This document shows positions 51,013 to 53,951 of a DNA stretch of 54,737 nucleotides, in pieces. The DNA comes from Candidatus Thorarchaeota archaeon. Its GTDB lineage: Archaea > Asgardarchaeota > Thorarchaeia > Thorarchaeales > Thorarchaeaceae. Where the stretch lies: NCBI GenBank assembly GCA_008080745.1, contig SHMX01000011.1, forward strand, positions 1 through 54,737, read 5' to 3'. The notes under the pieces are model-generated. The model had not been told where the DNA came from, searched no databases, and saw nothing but the letters and a program-made list of their open reading frames with translations. A program made the position numbers and the translations under genes. Each line of letters begins with the position of its first letter. The stretch's first letter is position 1.

Positions 51013-51945
51013 TCAATGATGATCAGATTGAAACTTTACTGCGATAACAATTACAACGGTAACTCCAATCCCGATAACTGCTATACGGGGGATATCAAAA
51101 AGAGGTGGTTGTCCCGGTGGAGTACTAGGCTGAGTTGTAGTTACAGAAGAGATATCAAATAAACCAATAGTGGGATCGTATTCTAAGGTATCTGAAAAGT
51201 AGGGAAAGCAGAAATATACCTGTTCACCATTATTCTGAGGGTTTGCACCATTGACACTAACATTTACTCCAACGTTTTTCGAATCGACTTGTGCTACTGA
51301 AGGATAGAGGAGATAGCCATTTCCAAAGGAAACATTTCCACTGCCCGGGTGAACTGTGGGTCGATTCATCTGACCAGTAGAATGTTGGCCCATACTGAGA
51401 ACAATTCCAAGGGCGAGACTATTGTTGGAATTATGCCATTCCCACCCAGATAGAATGATATCAAATTTCAAAGAGGCATTATTTGAAACATTAAGATGAT
51501 TAACCAAAGTTAGCTGAAGTTCAGGCTGCTGAGGGTAAAAAGTCCCGGATAAGCTAGTAAGTTGAAAATCTAACTTTACAACATCACCAGATTCCTCCTG
51601 TGTTACGAAATTGCTGAAAACCCATATTCCCGACTGTAGTGAAATGACAGGTCCAATCGGGGTATCAGCTGATTGAGTGTATACACCATCGTGGTTCGAG
51701 TCAGTATATTCAAACATTCGAACAAATAATACATGATAATCTGTATTATTTTCAACAATATCATAATAGGTGTAATGTGGAGAGTGAGAGCCCCTTAGAA
51801 AAAGTCCAAAAGCACCAAGTCGTGCATCAAGCCCCGATGAGTCTAATGTATACTGGATGGTAGTGGATGATGCAGCTACCAAAGGGAGCATCATCAAAAG
51901 AGTGAAAATGGTGACAGTATAGATCAACCTAGGTCTGGGGGACAT
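51013..51945 (-). CDS. Surface protein A, signal peptide plus C-terminal anchor
   Basis: About 310 aa. Signal peptide (about residues 8-25), extracellular beta-rich domain with many N-x-S/T sites, Thr/Pro-rich linker and a C-terminal helix (about 285-303). A D-S-N-H-D-G-V-Y turn resembles an EF-hand/dockerin calcium loop. It is paralogous to the protein at 53007-53951: shared T-D-Y-H-V-x-F, K-F-D-I-x-L-x-G-W-x-W, S-x-x-Q-H, F-G-x-x-Y, E-Y-D-P-T-I-G and I-G-V-G-V-T-V-V. ATG 51945 is chosen because a TATA box and palindrome end on it. It is divergent from the membrane winged-helix regulator. Function unknown; likely a cell-envelope protein. Confidence 0.75.
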   Translation of the reverse strand: MSPRPRLIYTVTIFTLLMMLPLVAASSTTIQYTLDSSGLDARLGAFGLFLRGSHSPHYTYYDIVENNTDYHVLFVRMFEYTDSNHDGVYTQSADTPIGPVISLQSGIWVFSNFVTQEESGDVVKLDFQLTSLSGTFYPQQPELQLTLVNHLNVSNNASLKFDIILSGWEWHNSNNSLALGIVLSMGQHSTGQMNRPTVHPGSGNVSFGNGYLLYPSVAQVDSKNVGVNVSVNGANPQNNGEQVYFCFPYFSDTLEYDPTIGLFDISSVTTTQPSTPPGQPPLFDIPRIAVIGIGVTVVIVIAVKFQSDHH

Positions 51946-51983
51946 AGTAACACACATTACTACCTTACTCAAATGCATATAAT
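51945..51983 (-). promoter_or_regulatory. TATA box and palindrome ending on the start codon of surface protein A
   Basis: On the minus strand the palindrome TAGTAA-TGTGTG-TTACTA (51962 down to 51945) ends with the A of the ATG start codon. The best TATA box (51976-51983) lies about 20-25 bases upstream of its centre, so the palindrome covers the expected transcription start. The paralogue has the same arrangement with another palindrome. An operator role is inference. Confidence 0.5.
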
Positions 51984-52040
51984 AAGAGTGCTTCCTGCGA
52001 GTTACAAGAGGAGTGGAACCAACTGGATAAAGATGCCATA

Positions 52041-52862
52041 ATGGACAAGATGTTTAGTGCTCTTGCCCATAAGGTTAGGCGAAAAATTATCGTCATGGTT
52101 GGAAATCAAGGTTCCGTGACATACACTGACCTTACCCAGTTAGGACTAGAACCAGGCACTCTTTATCATCACCTTGACATTCTTGTGAAATCTGAAGCAG
52201 CAATTCTCACCCAAGATAAGAATAAACAATACAGTCTCACCGACTTGGGGGAAGCTGCGCTAAATGTTATTATCCAGGGAGAGGATCAGACCTCATGGTC
52301 CATTAAGGAGAATAGCAGTTCCGATTCGATTCCTAGAATTGCAGCAGATATTATTGGAATGAAACCATTGGTGACAAGGGTGCAGAAGGACCCATGGAGA
52401 TTTCTAATCGAGATTCTTCTCTTCTTGAGCGTCTATGGTTACCTAGCATCGGAGGTAGAACTTCTACCATTTCTCTTGTTCTTTTTAGAAGGAAGCTATG
52501 TGTTGGGTCTAACGATTCTTGCATCTATTTCATCATGGATAATGACATATCTTCTGGTTGAATTCCTCTCCATTCTACTTCTAAAAAAGCGGGAACTGTC
52601 TCGCGGCCTATTCATGTCTGTACCGCTCGTATTTGTCCCCCATGTTGTAATCGAACTTATGTGGTTTATTGCTCCTACAAGTACTGCATTCACAGGATGG
52701 CCCCTTACAATCATATTGACAGGGATAATATCATGGAGTACCTACATACTTACTGTATCCGTTGCAAGAGCTAAAAAAGTGAGATTGTCAAGAGCAGCGA
52801 TGGTCACCTTGCTGGTCACTAATCTTAACCTGTTTATTCTGGCATTTATAGCAGGTTTCTGA
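52041..52862 (+). CDS. Membrane-bound winged-helix (ArsR-like) transcription regulator
   Basis: A 273-aa protein. Residues 1-80 form an ArsR/PadR-like winged helix (F-S-A-L-A-H-K-V-R-R-K-I-I, then L-E-P-G-T-L-Y-H-H-L-D-I-L as recognition helix and a beta wing at Y-S-L-T). Residues about 115-273 hold four to six membrane helices and no known sensor domain. Membrane-anchored one-component regulators of this type occur in archaea and could read membrane or surface state. It lies between two paralogous surface-protein genes, divergent from the first and 144 bases before the second, so it probably controls them. Signal unknown. Confidence 0.82.
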   Translation: MDKMFSALAHKVRRKIIVMVGNQGSVTYTDLTQLGLEPGTLYHHLDILVKSEAAILTQDKNKQYSLTDLGEAALNVIIQGEDQTSWSIKENSSSDSIPRIAADIIGMKPLVTRVQKDPWRFLIEILLFLSVYGYLASEVELLPFLLFFLEGSYVLGLTILASISSWIMTYLLVEFLSILLLKKRELSRGLFMSVPLVFVPHVVIELMWFIAPTSTAFTGWPLTIILTGIISWSTYILTVSVARAKKVRLSRAAMVTLLVTNLNLFILAFIAGF

Positions 52863-52964
52863 ATTTGTACGAGTAGAAATACAAAAAATCATGTTATTTT
52901 ACGGGTTTCGAGTCAACCTCGGGAAATCCCGAAGCGATGATTCAACAAATGCGGAATGGAACGA

Positions 52965-53007
52965 TTATATACTTATTTTAGTAAATATTATGTGGTGAAC
53001 CACCACA
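52965..53007 (+). promoter_or_regulatory. TATA box and palindrome ending on the start codon of surface protein B
   Basis: TTATATAC (52965-52972) is followed, about 20 bases on, by the perfect palindrome TGTGGTG-AAC-CACCACA (52991-53007). Its last A is the first base of the ATG start codon. It covers the expected transcription start and includes GGTGA, so it could act as DNA operator or as an RNA hairpin hiding the ribosome-binding site. Confidence 0.6.
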
Positions 53008-53951
53008 TGAAACACTCAAAAATTATGATTGCACTAGCAGCTCTTCTGCTATTAGCGACTGTCCCATTTGTTGCAGCACAGCAGAATGGCCCACAGTATA
53101 ATCACAGCAATGGTGTTGCCACCGTGACAACAGACAATCTTGGTCTAAAAGTCACTGCGGCAAATCAAGTACCACATTTCCACTTCTGGGATGCTAACGA
53201 TAGTACTCCTGGAACCGACTATCATGTTATGTTTAGCAAGTTTTTCGAGGCTAACGATACTGATGATGATGGTACATATACACCAGGGACTGACTCTAGA
53301 GTCTATGATCCACTAGTACTTCCATCATTAGGTTGGGAATTTAGTGGTTTTGAAACTGAAGGCGATCCAATTGATATGATACATTTCAATTTCACTTCAA
53401 CTGAAACCTTTACTCCCGGAGGACCTCCAACCTTAGCTGATAATGGACCTCCAGCGAGCATGGACATCACCATTAAGATTCTCGTACACATCGACCTAGC
53501 AAATGACAATGAAATGAAATTTGACATCATGCTAGATGGATGGGATTGGACCTACGATGATTCGATTCTGGTATTCCAATTCATAGTATCAGAGAGTCAA
53601 CATGGAGAGGAAAATGGTACTGCAGAGCCAACCAGCTTCCAACAAGAAGGAGCAACTTTCAACTTTGGCGAGGCGTACATGGAAGTAGCTCAAACAGCAG
53701 TTGCAGGTAATGAATCTTCCCCACAGACTGTTCAAGTTAGAGCTAGTCATGGAAGCTCAGCTGCAGAGGAAACAGGCGAATCTGTCTACATCTCCTTTGA
53801 AAACTTTGGTAATGAGTCATTATACTACGATCCAACTCTGGGCATAGGTTCAGATGGATTGGGTATTATTGATTACAATCAACTCTTACTCATTGGCGTT
53901 GGCGTGACAGTTGTTGTACTGATAGCCATTGCATTCAAGATGAGGAAATAG
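53007..53951 (+). CDS. Surface protein B, paralogue of surface protein A
   Basis: About 314 aa. Signal peptide (residues 5-25, ending V-A-A-Q-Q), extracellular domain with N-glycosylation sites, and a C-terminal membrane helix (about 288-309) followed by K-M-R-K. It shares blocks with the protein at 51013-51945, including T-D-Y-H-V-M-F, M-K-F-D-I-M-L-D-G-W-D-W, Y-Y-D-P-T-L-G and I-G-V-G-V-T-V-V. D-T-D-D-D-G-T-Y is a calcium-loop-like turn, and an E-S-Q-H segment is conserved. ATG 53007 is chosen because promoter, palindrome and signal peptide agree. It has a strong terminator. Function unknown. Confidence 0.78.
   Translation: MKHSKIMIALAALLLLATVPFVAAQQNGPQYNHSNGVATVTTDNLGLKVTAANQVPHFHFWDANDSTPGTDYHVMFSKFFEANDTDDDGTYTPGTDSRVYDPLVLPSLGWEFSGFETEGDPIDMIHFNFTSTETFTPGGPPTLADNGPPASMDITIKILVHIDLANDNEMKFDIMLDGWDWTYDDSILVFQFIVSESQHGEENGTAEPTSFQQEGATFNFGEAYMEVAQTAVAGNESSPQTVQVRASHGSSAAEETGESVYISFENFGNESLYYDPTLGIGSDGLGIIDYNQLLLIGVGVTVVVLIAIAFKMRK

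Follow-up and report, generated by a model that had tools for sequence, protein, structure and literature searches.

A Membrane-Bound Winged-Helix Regulator and a Candidate Tandem Operator Associated with an Anchored Surface Protein Gene in Asgard Archaea

In the window analyzed here (the whole stretch of 54,737 nucleotides, positions 1 to 54,737 of contig SHMX01000011.1, assembly GCA_008080745.1) from a Candidatus Thorarchaeota archaeon with a genome of 3.16 Mb, two genes of surface proteins flank the gene of a predicted membrane-bound regulator, which raises the question of whether this regulator governs its neighbors and, if so, which of them and through which DNA sites. To our knowledge, regulation has hardly been studied in Asgard archaea. 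The initial annotation interpreted the locus as a plausible membrane-sensing switch which chooses between two envelope proteins by means of palindromes located at their start codons. The three genes are the following:

51013–51945, minus strand: surface protein A, 310 aa (from translation), an anchored, diverged paralogous copy
52023–52862, plus strand: membrane-bound winged-helix regulator, likelier start CTG at 52023 (ATG at 52041)
53007–53951, plus strand: surface protein B, 314 aa, anchored, a member of the surface protein family and the probable target of the regulator

The outer two genes, initially described as paralogous, indeed encode proteins with 29% identity over 311 columns (BLASTP, E = 1e-35), and each of them was found to have the KFDIxLxGWxW block, the signal peptide and the anchor at the C-terminus that had been ascribed to both. 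The trio is retained in six genomes of the window's family. In the nearest relative, G001, proteins B and A are 84 and 68% identical to those of the window, respectively; the other genome found of the window's genus is MAG RBin_111, deposited as 'Candidatus Lokiarchaeota'. The copies of protein A form a separate clade of six sequences in the tree (support 100/100), and protein A-type paralogs adjoin the regulator in family f1 only. A third paralog of the surface proteins, encoded elsewhere in the same genome (C1, L047, 8845–9816), forms a long branch and possesses neither the operator described below nor a regulator.

The product of the middle gene was modeled by AlphaFold (pLDDT 84) as an ArsR-like winged helix, short linker helices and five long hydrophobic helices (residues 118–138, 155–181, 188–210, 220–245 and 249–272, with a short hairpin after the first one), in agreement with the winged helix and membrane helices proposed at the outset. 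The absence of a known sensor domain, stated there as well, also holds, as neither HAMP nor a sensor domain was matched in Pfam and the model displays only the short linker helices. The Pfam domains HTH_20 and HTH_5 were recognized in 8/13 and 3/13 regulator members, respectively, while Foldseek aligned the winged helix with PagR, YodB, BigR and SmtB with a probability of about 1 over approximately 80 residues (E-values of 0.07 or higher), the ArsR-fold PDB matches being mostly repressors. By both Foldseek and Pfam the DNA-binding part is of the ArsR winged-helix type; the whole-protein score against the ArsR/SmtB family model NF033788 was 25.4 bits, below the cut-off of 55. The membrane part matched the Yip1 domain in one of the 13 members (E = 0.0017), and comparison of the regulator with solved structures by sequence gave no useful match.

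Two elements precede the regulator gene:

51975–51986: TATA element GCATATAATAAG, readable both ways, toward protein A (minus) and toward the regulator (plus)
52008–52013, plus strand: Shine-Dalgarno sequence GAGGAG of the regulator, 9 nt before the CTG at 52023

Translation of the regulator probably starts at CUG (52023), which is in frame six codons before the ATG at 52041. When the 5' ends of the regulator genes were compared (L057, L058, L061, L042 and L076), the same CTG was found in G001, G003, G008, G010 and G028, with ATG in its place in G011 and G021; in G008 there is no in-frame ATG at the later position. The element GCATATAATAAG is identical in G001 and, judging by its sequence, would serve as the TATA box in both directions.

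The palindromes, together with the ribosome-binding element of protein B, are located as follows:

51945–51962, minus strand: palindrome TAGTAA-N6-TTACTA, arms 6+6, spacer N6; real, not conserved
52990–53008, plus strand: palindrome ATGTGGTG-AAC-CACCACAT, 19 bp, arms 8+8, spacer N3; real, not conserved
52994–52998, plus strand: Shine-Dalgarno sequence GGTGA of protein B, within the left arm of the preceding palindrome

Both palindromes are present, end at ATG and have a TATA box upstream, as was originally noted, the second one being longer by one base per side than initially described. According to a first-order Markov simulation, the chance that a dyad would end no more than 2 nt from the A of the start codon is 1.3% (arms of at least 6) or 0.08% (arms of at least 8) per promoter, which is unusual, yet these cases were picked post hoc among about 60 starts. 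Both palindromes are missing from G001, and none of the other relatives compared has one at the corresponding place; such an absence had been named in the initial annotation itself as evidence against its interpretation. The sequence GGTGAT, complementary to the 3' end of 16S rRNA, is a Shine-Dalgarno sequence, and it or a close form stands a few bases before ATG in nearly all protein B orthologs, most of them without the right arm; in the window, the left arm GTGGTGA contains this element. The search for a family of such palindromes in the window's own genome returned one exact copy only, and approximate matches were no more frequent than on the reversed control. The palindromes were therefore rejected as operators, being unconserved in relatives and having a Shine-Dalgarno sequence as one arm; that they are two unrelated sequences also disfavors them as sites of a regulator. 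Another role conceivable for the palindrome at 52990–53008 is that of a lineage-specific RNA hairpin hiding the Shine-Dalgarno sequence and start codon of protein B, as GTGGTG, which includes the former, can pair with CACCAC up to ATG. However, judging from the position of the TATA box, transcription would begin within the left arm, around 52995, and no relative keeps the structure, so that this role appears hardly probable at all.

A different, conserved element, missed by the initial annotation, was revealed upstream of the TATA box of the protein B gene (positions 52907–52956) when the promoters of regulator-adjacent B-type genes were aligned at TATA:

52907–52912: extra upstream half-site TTCGAG (f1 consensus TCGAA), from the gapless alignment
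52918–52933: operator box A, CTCGGGAAATCCCGAA (consensus TTCGR-N6-YCGAA), from the promoter alignment
52941–52956: operator box B, TTCAACAAATGCGGAA (consensus TTCNA-N6-TNGAA), 9 bp upstream of TATATA
52965–52972, plus strand: TATA box TTATATAC of surface protein B, from the sequence and promoter alignment

The element consists of two tandem 16-bp dyads separated by 6–9 bp, box B ending 7–9 bp before TATA; the extra half-site is a feature of f1. A gapless block of 75 columns contained 63 bits over 13 regulator-linked f1 genes versus 24 bits over 22 other members, the latter including L051 (G047), which carries the element on a contig ending before the regulator's place. The same tandem dyads occur in families f3, f7, f9 and f13, whose surface proteins are 25–36% identical to protein B, and the operator marks 25 promoters in five families, most of them beside the regulator. 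In this set, complementarity of the outer pairs of box A amounts to 84–100%, and in genus g1 a paired change from A/T to G/C yields TTCGG...CCGAA. The window's own boxes are slightly degenerate, with one mismatch to the search pattern, and theirs is the single place in the genome with at most one mismatch; the next best places have two, none of them prominent.

The distribution of the element bears directly on the question of two targets. No operator was seen in the promoter comparison before the divergent paralog A (start 51945), and family f1 paralogs without a neighboring regulator also lack it; in G008, the linked surface gene carries the operator and the unlinked paralog located elsewhere does not. 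The regulator could still be imagined to choose between the two envelope proteins through the start-codon palindromes, which are exact and belong to a trio kept with both paralogs in six genomes. However, these palindromes are absent from all relatives and differ from each other, the conserved operator stands at the 53007 paralog alone, and most of the linked families have no protein A paralog whatsoever. We consider such a switch very unlikely; what survives of the initial interpretation is the genetic linkage of a membrane-bound winged-helix regulator, devoid of a recognizable sensor domain, with anchored surface proteins.

The specificity of the element was assessed by a blind scan of 228 Asgard genomes with the pattern TTCGN8CGAA-N6..9-TTCNAN6TNGAA, which gave 20 exact matches versus 3 on the reversed control. 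Fourteen of the 20 immediately precede a family member's surface gene, and two more are at close copies of such promoters, one adjoining a duplicated regulator (G121) and one preceding a TATA box and an unrecognized gene start (G217), which makes 16 in all; the remainder comprises three occurrences of one repeated unrelated sequence and one unrelated match. The duplicated regulator (L133, G121:C71:4627-6674) is a second copy that has an intact operator and a TATA box of its own, followed by no recognized surface gene. A sequence fitting the operator pattern, TTCGTCAATAGTCGAAATCCTTATG, is repeated in three genomes (L115, L116 and L117; G219, G224 and G025) away from the genes considered here and is possibly a mobile element or a coding repeat.

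The surface protein and regulator families were found in 125 and 127 of the 228 Asgard genomes, respectively, and members of the two are direct neighbors in eight Asgard families (f1, f3, f9, f12, f13, f18, f20 and f21), with at least 27 genomes showing this arrangement, most of the genomes being fragmented drafts in which some loci end at contig edges. In f1, all nine genomes with a full-length regulator have it beside a B-type gene carrying the operator. The f1 surface genes without an adjacent regulator form one clade (support 95/85), so that the joint loss of operator and regulator amounts to about one event and, as a number, carries little weight; deep conservation is the stronger evidence. 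Many regulator family members (e.g., those of f2) have no adjacent surface gene in the loci examined, hence the pairing is not universal. Among them, five-helix homologs from f2 and f6 (L092, L093 and L094) have no surface gene detectable nearby and likely have different partners.

The gene pair, its conservation, the operator, the fixed phase of the latter relative to TATA and its absence from regulator-less f1 paralogs are established at the level of sequence comparison, from which we infer that the adjacent regulator would be the protein binding boxes A and B. An alternative is that some other transcription factor occupies the dyads, the adjacent regulator having other targets: its direct binding to the dyads is a prediction from sequence, and regulator homologs do exist without adjacent surface genes. 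Against this, the operator is essentially unique to the regulator–surface protein locus and tracks the adjacent regulator; moreover, the dyad changes together with the recognition helix. A 5-N6-5 dyad is kept before the surface gene in f12, f20 and f21 (TTCGA/TCGAG, TTCAA/TTGAA and TTCTA/TAGAA), while the dyad read from the f18 promoters (L123, L124, L135, L136 and L137) is CTTTA-N6-TAAAG; the recognition helix is GTLYxHLD/E in the users of TTCGA versus GSLFYHLK in those of CTTTA. A possible specificity switch in f18, where half-site and helix appear to change together, lends indirect support to the neighboring regulator as the dyad binder, the number of independent changes of this kind being small. 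Participation of another factor is thus regarded as improbable.

Taken together, control of the adjacent gene by a one-component membrane regulator acting through the tandem dyads is the reading we hold to be likely. In such a mechanism, the five C-terminal helices would hold the regulator in the membrane, and its cytoplasmic ArsR-like winged helix would bind boxes A and B ahead of the adjacent surface gene's TATA box, presumably as dimers in tandem, and would set transcription of the single anchored beta-supersandwich protein upon a signal perceived within or by the membrane domain, the presumable sensor. The regulator may mainly activate: activation is preferred by position alone, the site lying upstream of BRE/TATA as with ArnR and EarA. 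Box B is close to the presumed BRE, which would suit repression too. The same regulator and operator could act in the opposite sense, occupancy of boxes A and B barring TFB from BRE until a membrane signal arrives; we regard this as a plausible but less probable variant, given that box B ends only 7–9 bp from TATA and that the nearest solved folds are ArsR-type repressors PagR, YodB and BigR, whereas the distance of box A upstream of BRE/TATA is typical of the sites of archaeal activators, ArnR among them, and the fixed TATA phase across five families suits contact with TBP/TFB.

Membrane-bound ArnR/ArnR1 of Sulfolobus acidocaldarius, which is phosphorylated by ArnC, activates the archaellin gene flaB, for which it requires two TCGAC-N5-GTCGA boxes arranged in tandem between -43 and -84 (PMC6396743). 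The Asgard regulator resembles it as a membrane-bound one-component archaeal protein with an N-terminal HTH, C-terminal transmembrane helices and a surface structure as the target, as well as in the presence, upstream of BRE/TATA, of a tandem pair of inverted repeats that contain TCGA and measure about 15 bp; in the Asgard promoters, the first dyad has TCGA cores and the distance to TATA is fixed. It differs in having five transmembrane helices and neither HAMP nor sensor, as opposed to HAMP, sensor and two helices in ArnR, in the arms (TTCGA-N6-TCGAA versus TCGAC-N5-GTCGA), in the supersandwich instead of archaellin target and in its Asgard-wide occurrence (PMC6396743). As HAMP/sensor and the two-helix layout were not found, we do not assign the protein to ArnR; the best reading, by analogy, is that it would work like ArnR while standing outside that family. 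EarA of Methanococcus maripaludis is likewise an archaeal winged-helix protein which binds upstream of the BRE of a surface structure promoter and is required for expression, but its target is the archaellum, its sites are different, and the source does not describe it as membrane-bound (PMC13286277). In the broad sense the regulator belongs with the transmembrane transcription regulators (TTRs), since a DNA-binding domain and at least one transmembrane region are predicted in one chain, with no separate kinase; most of the surveyed TTRs are single-pass, in contrast to the Asgard protein with its five helices, single partner surface gene and operator, and the text of that survey makes no mention of Asgard archaea (PMC10269533). 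No description of the system was found in the open-access literature on archaeal CUG starts or on the promoters and surface proteins of Asgard archaea. As a tentative suggestion, we put forward an ancient Asgard-wide envelope circuit in which a multi-pass domain without an extracellular sensor would directly read the membrane's condition or that of its own anchored coat protein and set the expression of this single protein via a tandem dyad, operator and recognition helix co-evolving between families. With a defined regulator, a defined operator and one target, retained across a large part of the phylum, promoter control becomes testable in vitro.

The presumed target, protein B, was modeled (pLDDT 89.8) as a signal helix, a large beta-sandwich and a C-terminal anchor. 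Its best PDB matches by Foldseek were the supersandwich domains of LacZ, GH38, alginate and heparin lyases, with E-values of 3.7e-4 to 1e-3 and a TM-score by query of only 0.33–0.41. The surface protein had no match in Pfam and NCBIfam and no useful match to solved structures by sequence. The tentative likeness to galactose-mutarotase-like domains (LacZ domain 5, GH38, alginate and heparin lyases; Foldseek E of 4e-4 to 1e-3) is one of predicted fold, with no sequence similarity, and protein B is a stand-alone anchored domain without an enzyme domain. The model predicts a beta-supersandwich, and carbohydrate binding is a guess that it allows. Protein B becomes one of the few Asgard cell-surface proteins with both a predicted fold and a predicted regulator. 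A relative of it is also encoded in the Thorarchaeota MAG SMTZ1-45.
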